From contig JAAFJE010000023.1 of the NCBI GenBank assembly GCA_013298025.1, positions 1 to 64,000 of the forward strand: 64,000 bases of DNA, in the 5' to 3' direction. This stretch comes from Cytophagales bacterium (GTDB taxonomy: Bacteria > Bacteroidota > Bacteroidia > Cytophagales > Spirosomataceae). Position numbers and translations under genes: made by a program. Position 1 is the stretch's first letter. Each line of letters opens with the position of its first letter. This document shows positions 23,251-61,975 of this stretch, in pieces. Below the pieces are notes generated by a model. It was not told the DNA's origin, ran no database searches, and saw only the letters and a program-made list of their open reading frames with translations.

Positions 23251-24588
23251 ATGAAAATTGTCATTTTAGGAGGAGGAGAAAGTGGTGTAGGGGCAGCTTT
23301 ACTAGCCAAGCACAAAGGATTTGATGTTTTTTTATCAGACAAAGGTGTACTTTCTGAAAAGTATAAGGAGATACTCGACCAACACGGGATTCCTTATGAA
23401 GAAGGGCAACACAACGAAGAGTTTATTTTAGATGCCGACGAAGTTATCAAAAGCCCCGGTATTCCCGACAAAGTGGAGCTTATCAAAAAGCTAAAATCAC
23501 TTAAAAAACCTATTATTTCAGAAATAGAATTTGCGGCACGCTATACCAAAGCAAAAATCATTGCTATTACGGGTAGCAATGGCAAAACCACCACTACTTT
23601 GCTGACATACCATTTGCTCAAAAATGCAGGCTTCAATGTAGGTTTGGCGGGCAACGTAGGCGATAGTTTTGCCAAACAAGTGATAGAAGATACATTCGAT
23701 TATTTTGTGCTAGAATTGTCTAGCTTTCAGTTAGATAACTGCTACGATTTTAGGGCAGATGTGGCTATTTTATTGAATATTACACCCGACCATCTCGACC
23801 GCTACGAGTATAATTTTCAAAATTATATCAATTCAAAATTTAGGATTTTACAAAATATGACTCCTGAAAACGATTTTATCTATTTTCAGGAAAGCGAAGC
23901 CTTGGCCCAAGTGCTAGAAGAAAAGCATTTTGCAGTGCAGTATTTGCCCGTGTCTATCAAACAAAAAGTGGCAACAGGCGGCTCGGTCATCGACGGAATG
24001 CTAGAAGCGACTTATCGAGGAAATACCTTTCAGCTCCCAATCGAGCAATTGCCCATCAAAGGAACGCACAACGGCATCAATGCGGCTTGTGCTGTGTTGG
24101 CTGCCAAAGCCGTGGGCTTATCGGACGAAGCCATTACCGAAGGGTTACTTTCGTTTACCAGCGTAGAGCATCGCCTCGAACCAGCAGGTACTATCAAGGG
24201 CATTTCGTTTGTAAACGACTCTAAAGCCACCAACGTCGATTCGGTGTTTTATGCTTTGGGAAGTTTTAGCAACCCCATTATTTTGATTATGGGCGGTGTG
24301 GATAAAGGAAACGATTATTCACAAATTGATGAATTAGTAGCCGAAAAAGTCAAAGCATTGATTTGTATGGGTATAGACAACCACAAATTACTAGATTATT
24401 TTGGCAAAAAAGTCCCACAAATTTTTGATACCAAAAGTATGCAAGAAGCCGTAGCATTGGGCTTGTCGCTAGGCGAAGAAGGTGATGTGGTATTGCTTTC
24501 GCCAGCCTGTGCAAGCTTCGATTTATTCAAAAATTATGAAGACCGTGGCCGACAATTCAAAGAAGCGGTGAAGGGCTTGGGTGAATAG
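23251..24588 (+). CDS. murD: UDP-N-acetylmuramoyl-L-alanine--D-glutamate ligase
   Basis: Adds D-glutamate to UDP-MurNAc-L-Ala in peptidoglycan precursor synthesis (cytoplasm). I start at the ATG at 23251 (445 residues): MKIVILGGGESGVG is the normal N-terminus, and the longer frame from 23155 runs through the leader. The ATP-binding loop ITGSNGKTTT lies at 106-115, the Mur-ligase centre at ELSSFQLDN and NITPDHLDRY, and the C-terminal domain at VNDSKATNVDS and LSPACASFDLFKNYEDRG. It opens the broken dcw cluster of this window; upstream members such as mraY, murE and murF are not adjacent. Confidence 0.96.
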   Translation: MKIVILGGGESGVGAALLAKHKGFDVFLSDKGVLSEKYKEILDQHGIPYEEGQHNEEFILDADEVIKSPGIPDKVELIKKLKSLKKPIISEIEFAARYTKAKIIAITGSNGKTTTTLLTYHLLKNAGFNVGLAGNVGDSFAKQVIEDTFDYFVLELSSFQLDNCYDFRADVAILLNITPDHLDRYEYNFQNYINSKFRILQNMTPENDFIYFQESEALAQVLEEKHFAVQYLPVSIKQKVATGGSVIDGMLEATYRGNTFQLPIEQLPIKGTHNGINAACAVLAAKAVGLSDEAITEGLLSFTSVEHRLEPAGTIKGISFVNDSKATNVDSVFYALGSFSNPIILIMGGVDKGNDYSQIDELVAEKVKALICMGIDNHKLLDYFGKKVPQIFDTKSMQEAVALGLSLGEEGDVVLLSPACASFDLFKNYEDRGRQFKEAVKGLGE

Positions 24589-24642
24589 TTCTAAGTCGGT
24601 ATTAGTACTTAATTGTGATGTAGAATAATTAGACAATAGGTT

Positions 24643-25893
24643 ATGTACATAGAATCTCTAGTGATACGAAACATCCGTTCGATAGATACATTTGAGATGG
24701 ATTTCAAAAATCATGCAGGTTGGCATGTGCTTATTGGGGATAATGGGTCTGGGAAATCGAGTGTCATCAGAAGTATTGCCATTGGGCTACTAGGAGAAGA
24801 CGATACCAAAGCACTTTCATTCTCTGAAAACTTTGCTACATGGCTTCCTCCCAATGAAGTCACAGGCAATATTGAAATAAAAGGAATGAGAGATAACAAT
24901 TATGACATGCCCGTATATAAATCAAATAAAAAGTTTACTTCTCATGTCACAATTGAGCGTATAAATGGTAATGACAAAGTGACAATCAATGGTAAAGTTA
25001 CACCGCAAACAGCACTTTGGGGGCAATACAGCAGTAATAATGGGTGGTTTGTAGCTGCGTATGGGCCATTCAGAAGATTGAGAGGAAATACAGAAACTGT
25101 TATCAGTTCAAGACCTAGGCTTGGTGCTTGTATTACGGCTTTTAGAGATGATATTGCCCTGACTCAACTAACGGAGTGGTTGAAGAATTTGGCTCTTGAT
25201 GCGACCAAAAAGCCAAAAGCTAAAAAGAATTTAGAAGGTATTATTGCATTTATCAATTCATCGCAGTTATTGCCTGGCGGTGCTCAATTAACGGACGACA
25301 TTGATTCTGACGGTATAAAATTGGTCGATGGGAATAATGTCAAAGTTTCATTACAGGAAATGAGCGATGGGTTTAGGTCTATTTTGAGTATGATACTCGA
25401 CATCATTAGGTATATGATAGAGGTGTATGGTACTGATAATGTTTTTAAAACCAATGGTATTTTTCATGAAATAGATTTGCCCGGTGTTGTGCTAATTGAC
25501 GAAGTAGATGCTCATTTACATCCAACTTGGCAAACGAGAATTGGGCAATGGTTTACGAAGTTTTTCCCCAATATTCAATTTATTGTCACTACACATAGTC
25601 CGTTGGTATGTAGGGCTTGTGAGCAAGGCAGTATTTGGCGTTTGGCGAGTCCTGGCAGTGAACTTAGTTCTGGTAAAGTAACGGGTACAGATTTGCAACG
25701 TCTTATCTATGGAGATGTGCTTGATGCTTATGGTACTGAAATTTTTGGCGAAAATGTGAGCCAATCCGAGGCAGGGGCTGATTTGGCAAAGGAATTAACG
25801 GCATTGAGCAAAAGAGTGTTTTTAGGAGAGAAACTTACAAGCAAAGAAAAGGAGAGAATTAGCGAAATTAAAAAAATATTACCTGCAATATAA
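24643..25893 (+). CDS. AAA/SMC-type ATPase, PtuA-like (Septu anti-phage system)
   Basis: A 416-residue RecF/OLD-type ATPase. Walker A is GDNGSGKSS (32-40), the ABC-type signature is LQEMSDGFRS (about 237-246), Walker B is GVVLIDEVDAHLHP (281-294) and the H-loop TTHSP (316-320). The insert between Walker A and the signature is short, so there is no long coiled coil. The next gene, overlapping by one base (TAATG), encodes an HNH nuclease; ATPase plus HNH in this order is the Septu PtuA/PtuB arrangement. PtuA is thought to hold and control the nuclease until phage infection. It starts 54 bp after murD and reads in the same direction, with no promoter box seen. Other ATPase-HNH effectors (as in retrons) are the alternative, but no reverse transcriptase is near. 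Confidence 0.75.
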   Translation: MYIESLVIRNIRSIDTFEMDFKNHAGWHVLIGDNGSGKSSVIRSIAIGLLGEDDTKALSFSENFATWLPPNEVTGNIEIKGMRDNNYDMPVYKSNKKFTSHVTIERINGNDKVTINGKVTPQTALWGQYSSNNGWFVAAYGPFRRLRGNTETVISSRPRLGACITAFRDDIALTQLTEWLKNLALDATKKPKAKKNLEGIIAFINSSQLLPGGAQLTDDIDSDGIKLVDGNNVKVSLQEMSDGFRSILSMILDIIRYMIEVYGTDNVFKTNGIFHEIDLPGVVLIDEVDAHLHPTWQTRIGQWFTKFFPNIQFIVTTHSPLVCRACEQGSIWRLASPGSELSSGKVTGTDLQRLIYGDVLDAYGTEIFGENVSQSEAGADLAKELTALSKRVFLGEKLTSKEKERISEIKKILPAI

Positions 25894-26720
25894 TGATTCA
25901 GTTAATAAGACCTTCTCTTACCATTACGCATAATGCCCAATTGAGGGAATATCAGAGGACTGTAGATGCTTGCACGACATTTTCAGCAAAAGTTCGCTTT
26001 GCCAAAGATGACTTTTCCACTAAAAATGTAGTAGGAAATGCCGTTTTCGACCATGTTAAAAGTAAGCTAAAAGAAATGTGTAGCGGAGCAGAGCGTTGCC
26101 ATTATTGCGAAGATTCGGCAGTAGATCAAGTAGAACATTTTTATCCTAAAGATGCTTATCCTGAGTGCTGTTATGATTGGAATAATTATTTTTACGTTTG
26201 TGGCCCTTGTAATAGAAAGAAAAATAATAAATGTGCCATTATCAATGCCCAAGGTCAATTGATAGATGTTACACCTCCCAAAACAAAAGCTCATCTAGTT
26301 ATTGATAGAACTCCGCCCGTGTCTGGACGATATGCCTATGTGAATACAGAAAACGAAAATCCTTTAGACTTTTTTATGCTCGATATATTCAATGGTACTT
26401 TTGCATTGGTGGAGAATCCACATAAACAAGGTGTTGATTTGCTAAGAGCAACCTACACACTTGAGCAGTTGGATATAGGAAGAAAAAGGGTTTTGTGTAG
26501 GGCTCGCCAAAAAGCATACCAAGATTTTTTAAATGCTTTAGAAGCTTATTGGTTTGAATCACAGGTAATTAAACCTGATAAAGCAAAGCTTAAAAGAATT
26601 ATTGCTTGTATAAAAGAGGCAAATCATCAAACCGTTTGGCAAGAAATGAAAAGACAAAAAGACCTAATTCCAGAACTATCCGCTATTTTTGGTAAACTGC
26701 CAGTAGCTTTAGGATGGTAA
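25893..26720 (+). CDS. HNH endonuclease, PtuB-like (Septu anti-phage system)
   Basis: The 275-residue protein has an HNH site with zinc-binding pairs: CHYC (69-72), the catalytic VEHFYPK (H82), the middle asparagine in DWNNYF (N97) and CGPCNRKKNN (C103, C106). This CxxC...EHfxPK...CxxCN layout is that of the HNH family found with Septu and retron ATPases. The C-terminal 130 residues are helical and basic, probably for ATPase or DNA contact. It overlaps the ATPase stop codon by one base, so translation is coupled. It would cut nucleic acid when released by the ATPase. Downstream is ftsW, 53 bp away. Confidence 0.75.
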   Translation: MIQLIRPSLTITHNAQLREYQRTVDACTTFSAKVRFAKDDFSTKNVVGNAVFDHVKSKLKEMCSGAERCHYCEDSAVDQVEHFYPKDAYPECCYDWNNYFYVCGPCNRKKNNKCAIINAQGQLIDVTPPKTKAHLVIDRTPPVSGRYAYVNTENENPLDFFMLDIFNGTFALVENPHKQGVDLLRATYTLEQLDIGRKRVLCRARQKAYQDFLNALEAYWFESQVIKPDKAKLKRIIACIKEANHQTVWQEMKRQKDLIPELSAIFGKLPVALGW

Positions 26721-26773
26721 TAACGATTTACTATAAAAACCAGGTATAAAATAATTAAACTTATCCATCATTT

Positions 26774-27922
26774 ATGACAATAGCTTGGTTGAAAGAAAAC
26801 CTCAAAGGAGATTACCAAATCTGGACAATCGTGGCGTTTTTGTCGCTTATCAGTTTGATGGTCGTGTTTAGTGCGACGGGCAAATTGGCGATTATGTCGG
26901 ATTCGGGTACATTTTCTTTCTTTATCAAACACGCTTTTCTGGTATTTGCAAGTCTTATTACCATGTGGCTTTGCCATCGGATAGACTACCATAAATTTGC
27001 TACTTATTCTAATGTAGGGGTGATTTTATCGATTGTGTTGTTGATATACGCCTACAAGTTTGGGGTTTCTATCAACGACGCTCGTCGCTGGGTGCGTTTG
27101 CCGTTGATTGGTATGACTTTTATGCCTTCCGATGTAGCCAAACTTTCGTTGATTACCAATGTGGCGGCTATGTTGGCGGTCAAACAAAAAGTGCAATATA
27201 CTTTCTGGGAGCTAGTTCCCATGATTGGCAAAATCATTTTGGTATGTGCTTGTATTGCCCTTACCAACGTTTCTACGGCTGTACTGTTGTTTCTAACCTG
27301 CTTCTTGCTGATGTTCTTTGGGCGTGTACCAACGCCTTATTTGGGCTTGGCTATTGCAGGTATTTTTATCCTTGGTACATTGCTTGTGATGACTGGTACG
27401 GGAAGCCGTATCGAAACGGCTCGTAACCGTATTGCAAACTTCTGGGATGGAGTTACGGGAAATAAAAAGAAAGATGCCGATAAAGACGCTGATTATCAAA
27501 TAGAAAGGAGTTTTTATGCCATTGCCAACGGCGACTTTATCGGTCGAGGGCCAGGTCGAAGCCAACAACGCTACTTTCTCTCACAGGCCGACTCCGATTT
27601 TGTGTATTCTATCGTCATAGAAGAATGGGGAATGTTTGGTGGGGTATTTGTACTGGTCTTGTATCTTTGGTTTTTATACCGAGGTATGAAGGCCGTCGAT
27701 AGCTCTGGTAGGGCTTTTGGTGGCTTGCTGTCGGCAGGACTTACTTTTAGCTTGGTGATACAAGCAATGGTCAATATGGGTGTTGCCACAGGTTTGGGCC
27801 CCGTGACGGGGCAACCGCTTCCCTTGCTGAGTTGGGGTGGTAGCTCATTGATTTTTACAGGTATTTCGGTGGGTATTATTTTGTCGGTTAGTCGTGATAA
27901 AACCCAAGAAAGTGCTATTTAA
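26774..27922 (+). CDS. ftsW: FtsW-type SEDS peptidoglycan glycosyltransferase
   Basis: Inner-membrane polymerase of septal peptidoglycan, working with a class B PBP. About ten hydrophobic helices over 382 residues. SEDS signatures are present: VFSATGKLA in the first segment, VSINDARRWVRLPLIGMTFMPSD with the conserved W-R-x-P region, ANGDFIGRGPGRSQQRYFLSQADSDFVYSI with its catalytic aspartate loop, and LPLLSWGGSSLI near the end. Placement between murD and murG identifies it as FtsW rather than RodA. Confidence 0.95.
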   Translation: MTIAWLKENLKGDYQIWTIVAFLSLISLMVVFSATGKLAIMSDSGTFSFFIKHAFLVFASLITMWLCHRIDYHKFATYSNVGVILSIVLLIYAYKFGVSINDARRWVRLPLIGMTFMPSDVAKLSLITNVAAMLAVKQKVQYTFWELVPMIGKIILVCACIALTNVSTAVLLFLTCFLLMFFGRVPTPYLGLAIAGIFILGTLLVMTGTGSRIETARNRIANFWDGVTGNKKKDADKDADYQIERSFYAIANGDFIGRGPGRSQQRYFLSQADSDFVYSIVIEEWGMFGGVFVLVLYLWFLYRGMKAVDSSGRAFGGLLSAGLTFSLVIQAMVNMGVATGLGPVTGQPLPLLSWGGSSLIFTGISVGIILSVSRDKTQESAI

Positions 27923-32382: not shown

Positions 32383-33156
32383 TTGTCTTTGAAGTTACAT
32401 ACCAAACGATTACTCTGGTTGATAATCGCTCCCATTTCGATTATTGCTGCTGTTGTTGTAGCTAATAGTATTCACAAAGGACAAAAATGTAAAAAAGTGA
32501 ATGTCGAAATAGTGGGTGCTGGTGAGCATCGGCTATTGAAAGCGGCAGAAATATTGGGCGTTATCAATGCAGACCCTCTGGAAGCTCCTCAAGGAAAGCT
32601 TTTTGAAAAGATAGACTTTAGGGCTATCGAAAAGAAAATTCTAGCAAAGAAAAAGTTGGTCAAATCTTGTCAGGTACATCGAGATTTGAGCGGCGAGCTT
32701 ACGGTGTCTATACAAGAACATACACCCATAGCTAGAGTGCTAAACGCCAACGCTACCAATCACCAATTATACGATAATTACTTAGCCGAAGATGGTTCTT
32801 TTATAGGAATGTCGCAACATTATACGCAACGGGTCATTTTACTGTCGGGGGCGTATTTGATGGGAAAAAAAAGCTTGCAAAGCCCTCCCAGCAAACCTAT
32901 TCTTGATTTGATAAGCTATATCAAAGAAGACGAATTTTGGCGAGCCCAAATTACTCAAATTATCGTAGAAAAAGATGGTGGTATTCGACTCTTGCCCGAA
33001 GTAGGTACGCACGTGATAGAGTTTGGCTTGGCAAAAGATTTTGACACAAAGTTTAAGAAACTAAAATTGCTTTACAATTATATTTTGCCCACCAAAGGAT
33101 GGGACAAATATAAGCATATAAATATAAAATACAGGAATCAGATTGTTTGTGAATAG
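32383..33156 (+). CDS. ftsQ: cell division protein FtsQ-like
   Basis: Bitopic inner-membrane protein of the divisome; the periplasmic part recruits and regulates other division proteins. The frame has no ATG before the transmembrane segment; TTG at 32383 (or 32389) is the likely start, giving KRLLWLIIAPISIIAAVVV as the membrane helix. The following POTRA-like and beta domains include KVNVEIVGAGEHRL, AIEKKILAKKKLVKSCQVHR with DLSGELTVSIQEHTPIARVL, and DFDTKFKKLKLLYNYI near the end. Divergent family; identity rests on size (257 residues), layout and its place between murC and ftsA. Confidence 0.85.
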   Translation: MSLKLHTKRLLWLIIAPISIIAAVVVANSIHKGQKCKKVNVEIVGAGEHRLLKAAEILGVINADPLEAPQGKLFEKIDFRAIEKKILAKKKLVKSCQVHRDLSGELTVSIQEHTPIARVLNANATNHQLYDNYLAEDGSFIGMSQHYTQRVILLSGAYLMGKKSLQSPPSKPILDLISYIKEDEFWRAQITQIIVEKDGGIRLLPEVGTHVIEFGLAKDFDTKFKKLKLLYNYILPTKGWDKYKHINIKYRNQIVCE

Positions 33157-56753: not shown

Positions 56754-59636
56754 ATGGTATGGGTATCATCAGCCTTATGTGATAAGTCAGTAAACACATC
56801 AACAACTTACATCGCCAAATGTAAGCTCGGCAATTGCGAAAGTACAGGGGCTTCGCTGACAACTGGAAACGGAAATACCTCTCTTACGCTCAAGCTCCAA
56901 ACCAATAGCCCTATTGCGGCTGGCGAAAGCCTCGAACTATCGGCAGAAGCTTATGATGCCAACGCCACCTATACTTGGAATGTCAACAATACTACCTACA
57001 CAGGTAAAACGCTTGCTGTGCCAAACCTTGCTGCTGGTACATATACTGTAACGTGCACCGCAACGGCTGGTAGTTGTACCACACCAAGTACTACCACAGT
57101 ACAGGTAAACCAAACTGCTGATTGTGCTGTGTATATCAGTGCTACAGATGGTAGCACCGAAACCTATTCTTTTGCCCCTGCCAACAATGGTGTAGTAAAA
57201 CCCCTTACGCTATCGGTAGTTGATGAGAACGAAAATGGTACTGCTTTTTGGGGTGTCAATGCCGGCATTACGTACCAATGGACGGGGCCTAACGGCTTTA
57301 CAAGCAATATTGCTACGCCTAGCGTAAGTAAACCGGGCCTTTACTCGCTCAAAATGCTCAGTGGTACAAGCCAATGTGCTGCCAAGGTTAGCCTCTCGGG
57401 CGAGCCTTGCCAAACGGTAAAAGCCATGTACTGCAACCCTGCCTCGGCAGTGAAAGCCCCCGAAGAAACCACCCGCCTCAATTTCCTCGATGTAGGTGAC
57501 AACGTGTTTGCTGGCGATTTTATAGCCAATATCCTGACAGCCGAACCTACAGGCGATGGCAAGTTTAGTGGTACTGCCGCCGTAAGTGTGCCTTACCTCA
57601 AAGGTATTGCCCTCGAAACCCAGTTTACCAATGTTGACTTTAACCAATGCTTATCGCTCAAAAACGGAACGGATAATAAGTTGGTGACGGTGTTTGACCC
57701 GACTTTGGGGAATGTGGTGGATTTAGGTAACGTAATAGATATTTATAAAAATGCTTCTTCTAGTATAAAAGATATACTGCATATATTTACAGGTTCTTGC
57801 TCTGAAACTTCACAATTAGAAAAAGAGCTAGATAACTTAGAAAAAGCATTTGTATTAGATAATACGAATACCGTAGAGGAAAAACAGGAGATTCGAACGG
57901 CATTAGATAATTTAAAACAAGCTATTGTTGAGTTAAAGACTTGTCAATCTTGTACCAATTCAGGAAACAGAATTAGTGTTGAGCAACAAAATCTTGAAGG
58001 AGGTGATTGTAATAAAAAGCTTATCAATTGTCAGCAAAAACAAGCTGTCTTTCAAGCAAAAGCCTTAGTCAATGATGCTTTAGTAAAACGTAAGCCAACA
58101 AGAGAAATCGTAATTTCTGCAACGCCTGAGATGATTGCAACAGAATTTACGTCATTGGTTGAAGCTACAAAAGCTGAACTTACCAAAACAGATCTTGCTA
58201 GTTGTAGCGATTCATACAATAAGCCCAAAAATATTGATGGTATTCGATATTTTTGTCATAATTTTCCGATACCTTCTAAACAATTCAAGCTAATTTATTT
58301 GGGACAACCATTTGATGAAGCTGATGGAAGAAAAATAGATTATTTTTATGCTGCGGATAAATTCGACCATCATATTTGTATTACGAAAGAATTAATTTTA
58401 GGTCGTTTCATTCATAGATTTACTATTTTTGATAACACTTCTCAAAAGTGGGGAAGTTGGCAAGAGTTTTATCCACGTTTAGGTATTACCGCAGGAGAAG
58501 CATTTGGTAATATGATGGATGAGGCTGTGTATAATATGGCTATTGCTATGATTTCAGGAGGTACATCATTTGCAAAAAATGCACTTGTAGATGCTTCTGC
58601 TGATATTATTTATAGCAGTGTGATACAAGCCATGCCGTTGTGTATAAAGAATGCTAAAATAGACGTTGATTGCTTTAAACAGCAAGTTAGTGAAAACATA
58701 AAACACAATGCAATTGCCTTAGTTGGTACGGTAGCCGCAGTAACCATAACGTCAAAGTTATGGAAGGGGCTTCGTGAAATGGCGGGGTTAATTGATGAAG
58801 CACAAATTACGCCTACACAATTACAAGAAAGCCTACCTCTTTCAAAGACCAAAGCCCACAGCAAACTGGATAATGTAGAAATACCTACTACAGCTATCGA
58901 AGAAGCTGACGATTTGGTAAGGGTTAGTGGAGCGGGGGCAGGGAGCTTAACAAACAAGCTGATAAGTAGAGGACTTTCAAGCACTATGGCAGATGATATA
59001 GTTTTGAGAGCTATGTATATTGATGATAAAATTGGGGGTAATAAAATGCAATCTCTGATAGAGAAATTAGCAAGTGCATCTAACTTTAAAAATCCAGAAG
59101 ATTTGTTTATAAATATTGATGCCTGTATGAAGAAAATACAATTCAATGGAAAAAAAATATCTTCTGCAGATATTGATTTGACCAGAGCAAATTCTTTAAT
59201 AGAAGAATTTAAAGAAGGTAAATATTGGATAGATCAAGAATGTGAAGTTTATATTTCTAAAAAATGGGCTGGAAATGTTGATGAGGTAGATGTTACGATA
59301 CCTACTAAGAGAGGCTTGGTAGAATGTAAGAATGCTACAGGGAATGATTTAAGGGCAAATTTGCTGGAAATTATTAAAAAATATACTACTGAAGGTAAAT
59401 TAAGCTCTGTAATAAAAAATAAATACCCAAATCATTATGGAAAAATAAGTGTAAGTAACGCTTCCAATGAATATTACAACCTAAACAAGCAACAAATAAT
59501 TAACAGATTTAGACAAGATTTATTTCCTAATATCAATAATTCGGGTGTTGATAAAAACACATTAGTTAATGTTGTAAAAGAACTTCATATTGAAAATGGA
59601 CAAGGTAGAATCATTATAAAAAATACAGAATGGTAA
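56754..59636 (+). CDS. polymorphic-toxin-like protein with C-terminal PD-(D/E)XK-type nuclease
   Basis: A 960-residue protein. Residues about 40-215 hold two Ig/PKD-like units (GESLELSAEAYDANATYTWN, LAAGTYTVTCTA; ITYQWTGPNGFTSNIATPSV). About 235-320 is a linker domain (FLDVGDNVFAGDFIANI, GKFSGTAAVSVPYLKGI). About 325-400 is helical, and 580-680 carries hydrophobic helices. The tip has DEVDVTIPTKRGLVECKN, with D846 and E857-x-K859 as a PD-(D/E)XK metal site. It would be a DNA- or RNA-cutting effector. There is no signal peptide: an in-frame TGA at 56745 and repeat DNA precede the ATG, so the real N-terminus is probably lost. From about 57.7 kb the DNA is more AT-rich than before. An immunity-type gene overlaps the end. 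Confidence 0.75.
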   Translation: MVWVSSALCDKSVNTSTTYIAKCKLGNCESTGASLTTGNGNTSLTLKLQTNSPIAAGESLELSAEAYDANATYTWNVNNTTYTGKTLAVPNLAAGTYTVTCTATAGSCTTPSTTTVQVNQTADCAVYISATDGSTETYSFAPANNGVVKPLTLSVVDENENGTAFWGVNAGITYQWTGPNGFTSNIATPSVSKPGLYSLKMLSGTSQCAAKVSLSGEPCQTVKAMYCNPASAVKAPEETTRLNFLDVGDNVFAGDFIANILTAEPTGDGKFSGTAAVSVPYLKGIALETQFTNVDFNQCLSLKNGTDNKLVTVFDPTLGNVVDLGNVIDIYKNASSSIKDILHIFTGSCSETSQLEKELDNLEKAFVLDNTNTVEEKQEIRTALDNLKQAIVELKTCQSCTNSGNRISVEQQNLEGGDCNKKLINCQQKQAVFQAKALVNDALVKRKPTREIVISATPEMIATEFTSLVEATKAELTKTDLASCSDSYNKPKNIDGIRYFCHNFPIPSKQFKLIYLGQPFDEADGRKIDYFYAADKFDHHICITKELILGRFIHRFTIFDNTSQKWGSWQEFYPRLGITAGEAFGNMMDEAVYNMAIAMISGGTSFAKNALVDASADIIYSSVIQAMPLCIKNAKIDVDCFKQQVSENIKHNAIALVGTVAAVTITSKLWKGLREMAGLIDEAQITPTQLQESLPLSKTKAHSKLDNVEIPTTAIEEADDLVRVSGAGAGSLTNKLISRGLSSTMADDIVLRAMYIDDKIGGNKMQSLIEKLASASNFKNPEDLFINIDACMKKIQFNGKKISSADIDLTRANSLIEEFKEGKYWIDQECEVYISKKWAGNVDEVDVTIPTKRGLVECKNATGNDLRANLLEIIKKYTTEGKLSSVIKNKYPNHYGKISVSNASNEYYNLNKQQIINRFRQDLFPNINNSGVDKNTLVNVVKELHIENGQGRIIIKNTEW

Positions 59637-60403
59637 TGAGAGAGTTTGATAAAGTAGTAAATTCAAGTAATTATTGGTGTGATTTTGAGTCTGAATTATC
59701 TATTTATTATCATTTAAAATGGATAGGAGAACATAGTATAAATAAGTTTATTAGTAATGAAATGATATTTTTTACAAAGTATATTTCACTTTGTAAAAAA
59801 TATGGTTTTGCCATTCCATTAAATTGTAATGAGGATAATTTTTTTGACTTATACCAGCAGGAAATAAATAAAAAAAAAGGCTATGATATGAGTGCTTGGT
59901 ATCTTATGTTTCGTATGTACACATACGGAAAAGAACTAGTTTATCCTTCAAAATTATTTATTGATATAAAGGATATATCATTTAAAAACATAGTAAATAT
60001 TGACCCAATTTCAGAACTTAAACATCTAGAAGTAGATAATGTAAGCTTCGCACCACCACTAATAATAGAGTTGAGAGAAAAACAAGATGAAATTGTATTA
60101 ACTTGTTATATAGACAACGACATTTTTAATTTAGAGTTAGATAATAAAAAATGCCATGATTTGGATTATTTTGTCGATAATTCTGGTTTAGCTTACTTAA
60201 ATACTCCTCGTTTCAATAGTTTTTTACGAGATTTAAAAAAACTATGTTTTGAGTATTGTGCTACAGATTTTGAGTTTGAGAATTTGGGTTTGAAAGATTT
60301 TTGTGAAGATGGTGTAATGTTTAATGGAGAAGTAGTTTATTATGAAGATATAGAAAATTTGTTAGAACCTCACCAACGAATTCCCTCGCTGTTTCAAGTT
60401 TAA
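59636..60403 (+). CDS. putative immunity protein to the upstream nuclease toxin
   Basis: The ATG at 59636 shares its A with the TAA of the toxin gene (TAATG), so translation is coupled; an ATG at 59630 would add two residues. The 255-residue protein is acidic and cytoplasmic (no signal), with AT-rich DNA like the toxin tip. No family was recognised. It is called immunity on position only. Its last codons (IPSLFQV-stop) are read from repeat R1c, which starts at 60383, so the native C-terminus may have been changed by that element. Confidence 0.6.
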   Translation: MREFDKVVNSSNYWCDFESELSIYYHLKWIGEHSINKFISNEMIFFTKYISLCKKYGFAIPLNCNEDNFFDLYQQEINKKKGYDMSAWYLMFRMYTYGKELVYPSKLFIDIKDISFKNIVNIDPISELKHLEVDNVSFAPPLIIELREKQDEIVLTCYIDNDIFNLELDNKKCHDLDYFVDNSGLAYLNTPRFNSFLRDLKKLCFEYCATDFEFENLGLKDFCEDGVMFNGEVVYYEDIENLLEPHQRIPSLFQV

Positions 60404-61253: not shown

Positions 61254-61347
61254 CCCTCGCTGTTTCAAGTTTAACAACTTGGAACAATAAATCAAGTGCA
61301 GTCTCCGACTGCACCACCAGTACAACCAATAGCAAAGATTGCATATT
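61254..61347. repeat. R1 repeat, copy d (left half)
   Basis: Begins 5 bp after the stop codon of the membrane protein gene. It has the R1 left end, the GTGCAGTCTCCGACTGCAC hairpin and ATAGCAAAGATTGCATATT, the same R1-R2 junction as in copy c, then R2 sequence. The R1 right half is missing. Confidence 0.75.
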
Positions 61348-61750
61348 CCGCCTTCGTTGGAGTTATCTCCAACGAAACGAGCGTAAGCAACTTGCCAACT
61401 ATCAAAAAAAGAAAATATGATAGAGATTTGTTGCTTACGCACAGCTTGTTGGAGATAACTCCAACAAGGGCGAAATTTCCGCCTTCGTTTGAGTTATCTC
61501 CAACGAAACGAGCGTAAGCAACTCGCCAACTATCAAAAAAAGAAAATATGATAGAGGTTTGTTGCTTATGCACAGCTTGTTGGAGATAACTCCAACAAGG
61601 GCGAAAACAAAAAGAAAATATGATAGAGGTTTGTTGCTTACGCACAACGAAACGAGCGTAAGCAACTCGCCAACTATCAAAAAAAGAAAATATGATAGAG
61701 GTTTGTTGCTTATGCACAGCTTGTTGGAGATAACTCCAACAAGGGCGAAA
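61348..61750. repeat. array of R2 repeats
   Basis: Complete copies at 61348-61475 and 61479-61606, then truncated copies at about 61607-61645 and 61647-61750. All keep the same orientation. Differences are single bases (for example TTTGAG for TTGGAG at 61487). The apparent minus-strand ORFs here are translations of the repeat. Confidence 0.8.
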
Positions 61751-61975
61751 GTTGCAGGGGCAAAACATCGTGTGATATAACCTTCCTGCAAGTTGCAGGA
61801 GCAAAACATCGTGTGATGCAACCTTCCTGCGAGTTGCAGGGGCAAAACATCGTGTGATATAACCTTCCTGCGAGTTGCAGGAGCAAAATATCATGTGATA
61901 CAATCTTCCTGCAAGTTGCAGGAGCAAAACATCTTGCGATGCAACCTTCCTGCAAGTTGCAGGAGCAAAACATCG
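61751..61975. repeat. R3: five and a half 41-bp tandem repeats
   Basis: Units start at 61751, 61792, 61833, 61874, 61915 and 61956 (partial), each beginning GTTGCAGGRGCAAAACATC and ending CCTTCCTGCRA. Every junction makes the palindrome TCCTGCAAGTTGCAGGA or a one-base variant. The whole period is conserved, so it is not a CRISPR. Confidence 0.85.

Follow-up and report, generated by a model that had tools for sequence, protein, structure and literature searches.

Defence modules have mostly been described from islands and mobile elements. Septu is a two-gene module that pairs an ATPase, PtuA, with an HNH nuclease, PtuB. A reverse transcriptase is present in Septu type II and absent from type I (PMC8565338); the type II systems, or retrons of type I-A, such as Ec78 and Ec83, use the same ATPase and HNH effector families. 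One report on the E. coli Septu system EcB88 states that the Walker motifs in PtuA are required, as is the H-N-H motif in PtuB, and that infection causes tRNA-Tyr to be cut in the variable loop (PMC13096335). In a second report, the PtuAB proteins of retron Eco7 likewise deplete tRNA-Tyr, and the Septu system of E. coli ATCC 25922 is reported to act on nicked DNA (PMC11555353).

The pair described here shares with Septu type I both genes, their order, their tight coupling and the Walker and HNH motifs, and differs in its location: this is a known system in an unusual place, between murD and ftsW. It lies in the window, by which we mean the whole 64,000-nt stretch of DNA that was analysed, and was noticed in an initial annotation as a PtuA/PtuB-like pair running in the same direction as its neighbours, with short spacers on both sides and a TAATG overlap; ORF calls and Pfam agree with that description. 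The stop of murD at 24588 and the start of ftsW at 26774 leave spacers of 54 nt (murD-ptuA) and 53 nt (ptuB-ftsW), all four genes are on the plus strand, and ptuA and ptuB overlap by 1 nt, base 25893, within TAATG. The features are listed below, with the ATG at 23251 taken as the start of murD.

23251..24588, plus strand: murD, the upstream neighbour; Pfam MurD_N, Mur_ligase_M and Mur_ligase_C; 81-82% identity in four congeners
24589..24642, plus strand: murD-ptuA spacer, 54 nt; without a terminator-like site, a plus-strand sigma-70-like match or a TANNTTTG motif
24643..25893, plus strand: ptuA, the ABC/SMC-type ATPase of Septu, 416 aa; PADLOC PDLC00269 PtuA1, Pfam AAA_21 and AAA_15, PDB PtuA chains
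24736..24762, plus strand: Walker A, GDNGSGKSS; G35, G37, K38 and S39 invariant in 16 sequences
25483..25503, plus strand: Walker B, GVVLIDE; D286 and E287 invariant in 16 sequences
25893..26720, plus strand: ptuB, the HNH nuclease of Septu, 275 aa; PADLOC PDLC00340 PtuB1, PDB PtuB chains, Pfam HNH below cut-off
26097..26222, plus strand: HNH core; C69, C72, E81, H82, N98, C103, C106, N107 and K110 invariant in 17 sequences
26721..26773, plus strand: ptuB-ftsW spacer, 53 nt; without a terminator-like site, with a sigma-70-like match (9/12) at 26727-26755
26774..27922, plus strand: ftsW, the downstream neighbour; Pfam FTSW_RODA_SPOVE; 78-81% identity in four congeners

Seven of the eight nearest plus-strand genes could be named by Pfam. 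They are an accD-like carboxyl transferase gene, a DUF3078 gene, murD, ftsW, a murG-type glycosyltransferase gene, a GFO/IDH oxidoreductase gene and a Mur ligase gene, which lies downstream of ftsW and is read as murC. The eighth, at 32383-33156, had no Pfam match and is followed by ftsA, also identified by Pfam. No integrase domain was detected by Pfam in the ten genes flanking the pair; across the 64-kb window, Rfam returned zero families at gathering score and ARAGORN found no tRNA. We consider it highly probable that the locus is a Septu type I module which a single lineage gained horizontally and which entered the short murD-ftsW spacer, or a position beside it, without damage to murD or ftsW.

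The identity of the two proteins is carried by profile matches. PtuA was matched by the PADLOC PtuA1 model (PDLC00269) with 442 bits and an E-value of 8e-133 over residues 1-413, and PtuB by the PtuB1 model (PDLC00340) with 276 bits and 7e-83 over residues 1-275. Because PADLOC models for both PtuA and PtuB match over nearly the full length, the pairing is not a matter of chance. The best PADLOC label for PtuA other than PtuA itself was a type IV restriction enzyme model, at 152 bits, and the comparison with PtuA and PtuB families proposed beforehand thus returned Septu models as the best labels, rather than ATPase or HNH families from outside defence. Pfam recognized AAA_21 and AAA_15 in PtuA and only a sub-threshold HNH domain in PtuB. 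The NCBIfam models, which were built for retron Ec78, scored 137 bits against a cut-off of 500 for PtuA and 37 against 150 for PtuB; these scores lie far under the cut-offs, and the pair therefore represents a divergent branch. Matches in the PDB were confined to local stretches: for PtuA the top ones were retron and Septu PtuA chains (best 6e-25), and for PtuB they were PtuB chains (best 3.4e-5). PtuA is distant in sequence from the solved PtuA structures, the best match being the ATPase of retron Ec83. The Walker residues are invariant in a 16-protein PtuA alignment and the HNH-core residues in a 17-protein PtuB alignment; the invariance of H82 and N98 holds within those 17 sequences, and H75 and N91 of Septu EcB88 lie outside the alignment. 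PtuB also immediately adjoins PtuA at all 11 other PtuA loci in the family.

The NCBIfam and PDB matches are mostly to retron PtuA and PtuB, and one might accordingly suppose that the pair is a type I-A retron (Septu type II) whose reverse transcriptase and noncoding RNA have been lost or overlooked. This idea is largely refuted already, and we regard it as extremely improbable. A search of the assembly for RVT_1 gave a single match, on contig C49, not the contig of ptuAB; the window holds no Rfam match at gathering scores; and the Ec78 models score far under their cut-offs. The pair thus differs from the type I-A retrons in having no nearby reverse transcriptase and no Rfam RNA in the window, and the initial statement that it is not a retron stands. 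The locus has a Walker A/B ATPase, an HNH nuclease with H and N, ptuA followed by ptuB, and no reverse transcriptase. From its sequence the module is Septu type I (PtuAB), and not a retron, since the assembly's sole RVT_1 match is on C49.

The same genome carries a second Septu pair, on contig C53 (L062:8908-10658), with a PtuA of 419 aa (PDLC00295, 431 bits) and a PtuB of 166 aa (PDLC00339, 102 bits). Compared with the murD-ftsW pair, it is on another contig, its PtuA is about 25% identical and its PtuB is shorter. Downstream of it, at a distance of 1.3 kb, is a gene for a hybrid sensor kinase. Short DNA matches to the Walker B stretch of ptuA were also seen at C50:133802-133920 (74%) and C52:91708-91824 (70%) (L002, L003); these are probably other ATPases of the same superfamily.

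We compared the murD-ftsW junction among relatives, a check that had been set beforehand. In a family sample of 121 genomes, ftsW was found in 117 and murD in 94 at the thresholds used, and both in 91. The two genes were adjacent on one strand in 78 of these 91; in the remaining 13 they were apart or on separate contigs and are uninformative on the junction. The gap is 2188 nt in the genome under study and 20-149 nt (median 77) in the other 77. An order sample of 213 genomes gave ftsW hits in 203 and murD hits in 181. Among the matches listed (the first 150 for each gene), 120 genomes had both genes, adjacent in 93 and not in 27; the other 92 adjacent genomes among them had gaps of 17-437 nt (median 65), the widest being in genome G231. 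Of these 92, 79 lie outside the family, giving 156 distinct other genomes with adjacent genes and gaps of 17-437 nt, none of which holds an insert of comparable size. PtuA itself is sparsely distributed. At E<=1e-20 it was found in one of five genomes of the genus, the four congeners having no match, and at E<=1e-60 in 12/121 genomes of the family, 18/390 of the order and 3/395 of the phylum. Judged by their coordinates, the other 11 loci of the family at 1e-60 all lie away from murD and ftsW.

The gap of 17-437 nt in 156 other genomes and the lack of PtuA in four congeners mean that ptuAB is not a conserved gene pair of this junction across the Cytophagales sample. As judged from these genomes, it is a lineage-specific insertion and not a fixed part of the division and cell-wall cluster. 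The same results bear on two other explanations. Position alone would favor a domesticated ATPase-nuclease that serves cell-wall synthesis or division, not defence; we find this very unlikely, given the 156 other junctions that lack an insert of such size, the four congeners without a PtuA match at E<=1e-20 and the wide margin by which Septu models score highest. A draft assembly of 53 contigs could, in principle, have misplaced between murD and ftsW a Septu locus that belongs somewhere else. Such an artefact is scarcely credible: two false joins would be needed, both falling in spacers and both preserving conserved order and orientation within a 65-kb contig, and murD and ftsW each have one match in the assembly at the thresholds used.

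Where the inserted Septu module came from was approached through its relatives. PtuA matches at E<=1e-60 in the family and order are 41-54% identical over the matched part. In a tree of 23 PtuA sequences, with good support for 5 of its 20 inner branches and weak to that extent, the protein forms a long lone branch, and the branching departs from the genera: G031, G085 and G094, all of genus g31, fall in three places. GC3 is 0.32 for ptuA and 0.26 for ptuB, against 0.41 for murD and 0.46 for ftsW; among 38 genes of the window, ptuB ranks second lowest and ptuA seventh lowest, which is low, not extreme. PtuA relatives at E<=1e-30 occurred on 6 of 72,556 plasmid records (best 43% identical), a single partial match at E<=1e-15 was found among 50,697 phage records, and searches of named genomes with short exact patterns gave four relatives at 44-48%; no donor was found in these plasmid, phage and named-genome searches. 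The best reading of these comparisons is that the module was gained horizontally in its own lineage.

No direct or inverted repeats of at least 12 nt pair the two ends of the insert. A flanking direct repeat, GACAATAG, found upstream of ptuA and again where ftsW begins, was considered as a target duplication and rejected, 365 of 1225 pairs of gene-start windows having scored at least as high. When the two spacers were compared with eight empty sites each, 15 of the 16 comparisons looked like shuffles; the exception was the upstream spacer against G036, from another genus, with a score reached by 1 of 200 shuffles. Because the spacers of the relatives are too diverged, the breakpoints cannot be placed.

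The location raises the matter of how the pair is transcribed. Neither spacer contains a terminator-like site, and neither contains TANNTTTG, which we take to be the Bacteroidota -7 promoter motif; one copy is present at 26684, close to the 3' end of ptuB. A sigma-70 scan found 20 sites where 14.5 (sd 4.0) were expected by chance. One of the sigma-70-like matches falls between ptuB and ftsW, at 26727-26755, and would allow ftsW a promoter of its own, although the total number of sites is close to chance level. These motif scans are not evidence either way on whether the genes have promoters of their own. Since the genes share one strand, are closely spaced and have no terminator-like site between them, we infer that ptuAB is expressed from the murD-ftsW transcript.

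By analogy with its tested relatives, the following sequence of events can be proposed. The pair would be transcribed as part of the murD-ftsW operon, and the PtuAB complex would stay inactive until phage infection. On infection, the HNH nuclease of PtuB would cut nucleic acid, and the cutting would put an end to phage growth, though the host would pay a cost. Because the Walker and HNH motifs are kept, an infection-triggered nuclease is the likely mode of action of PtuAB here.

A junction in a sister genus, g31, shows what can happen to a module in such a position. In G094, PtuAB is flanked by a SIS-domain gene at 43 nt and a FabG-like gene at 42 nt, all in the same direction. We examined this junction in nine genomes of the genus (L087-L095). 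The SIS and FabG-like genes are adjacent, with no module, in G075, G118, G031, G063 and G050. In G110, G085 and G102 the junction is occupied by a gene for an ATPase together with another gene, some 190 codons long. PADLOC identifies this pair as HEC-01, with 560 and 161 bits in G110 and 560 and 146 bits in G085; for G102 the HEC-01 assignment comes from an alignment of the region with G085 (74%), not from PADLOC. In Pfam terms the G110 pair is AAA_21 plus DUF4276. Like the murD-ftsW module, the candidate defence pair HEC-01 is a two-gene, ATPase-led module at an operon junction, although it has another effector and sits in another, putative operon; the site it occupies holds Septu in one close relative and is vacant in others. 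The immediate flanks of G094, G110 and G075 are 92-96% identical, yet G094 holds Septu, G110 holds HEC-01 and G075 has no module. Aligned with each other, G094 and G075 match up to the first gene's stop codon and again from the second gene's start codon. Compared in this way, the genomes show modules coming and going at the SIS/FabG-like junction while the neighbours remain intact. HEC-01 may have occupied the site earlier, with loss or replacement in other genomes.

It had been proposed initially that a Septu pair cotranscribed with murD and ftsW would be hard to lose. That expectation is weakened, because immediate flanks of 92-96% identity in the sister genus hold Septu, HEC-01 or nothing at all. 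The turnover there also fits the notion that ptuAB is a silent or decaying passenger, which landed at murD-ftsW by chance, is barely expressed and is on its way out, as do its presence in one of five species of the genus and the 54-nt spacer without a promoter motif. We nevertheless judge this unlikely: both reading frames are open, the conserved catalytic residues are retained, and the pair is flanked by two co-directional and presumably transcribed genes. An intact Septu module acquired by this lineage remains the preferred explanation.

The other family PtuAB loci provide a wider setting. Their Pfam-named neighbours are mostly ordinary genes (prfC, ggt, an aldehyde dehydrogenase gene), and several neighbours have no Pfam match. 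From the ORF calls, co-directional neighbours within 150 nt on both sides were found in 3 of the 12 family genomes with PtuA at 1e-60 (the one under study, G094 and G085); 8 of the 12 had no such close two-sided neighbours, and in one the locus was at a contig edge. The idea that PtuAB is enriched in operons was set aside, as 3/12 compares with a chance level of about 1/3 (a rough estimate, not computed), and no enrichment is claimed. Three species of the same genus, G085, G031 and G102, have PtuAB immediately upstream of a gene for gamma-glutamyltranspeptidase (L053, L058, L059). The G085 PtuA groups apart from those of G031 and G102 in the tree, as if the site beside ggt had been filled twice.

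These observations suggest that small defence modules can settle in operon spacers, but with two junctions they are anecdotal and give no rate. A broader proposal, which we put forward tentatively and think may well prove wrong, is that spacers of housekeeping operons in this family are docking sites for two-gene ATPase-effector defence modules, swapped from stop codon to start codon without an integrase, with the murD-ftsW case placing defence under the transcription of septal wall synthesis. If this were so, growing and dividing cells, the best hosts for phage, would be the ones armed. The location, together with the series of Septu, HEC-01 and empty sites, points to a route of carrying and exchanging defence genes that island searches would miss, and the murD-ftsW locus offers a direct test of growth-tied defence expression. 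Among literature titles on Septu, essential-operon defence, Bacteroidetes and HEC-01, none concerned defence modules inserted in division operons.

Elsewhere in the window, the region 56754-60403 contains a 960-aa ORF, for which Pfam gives a weak PKD match and nothing else, and, overlapping it, a 257-aa ORF whose GC content (26.6%) is unusually low. From their layout and composition we would guess that the two may be a secreted polymorphic toxin and its immunity gene. Near them, at 61345-61975, a 131-nt unit is repeated in tandem (3 copies), as is a 41-nt unit (5.5 copies).
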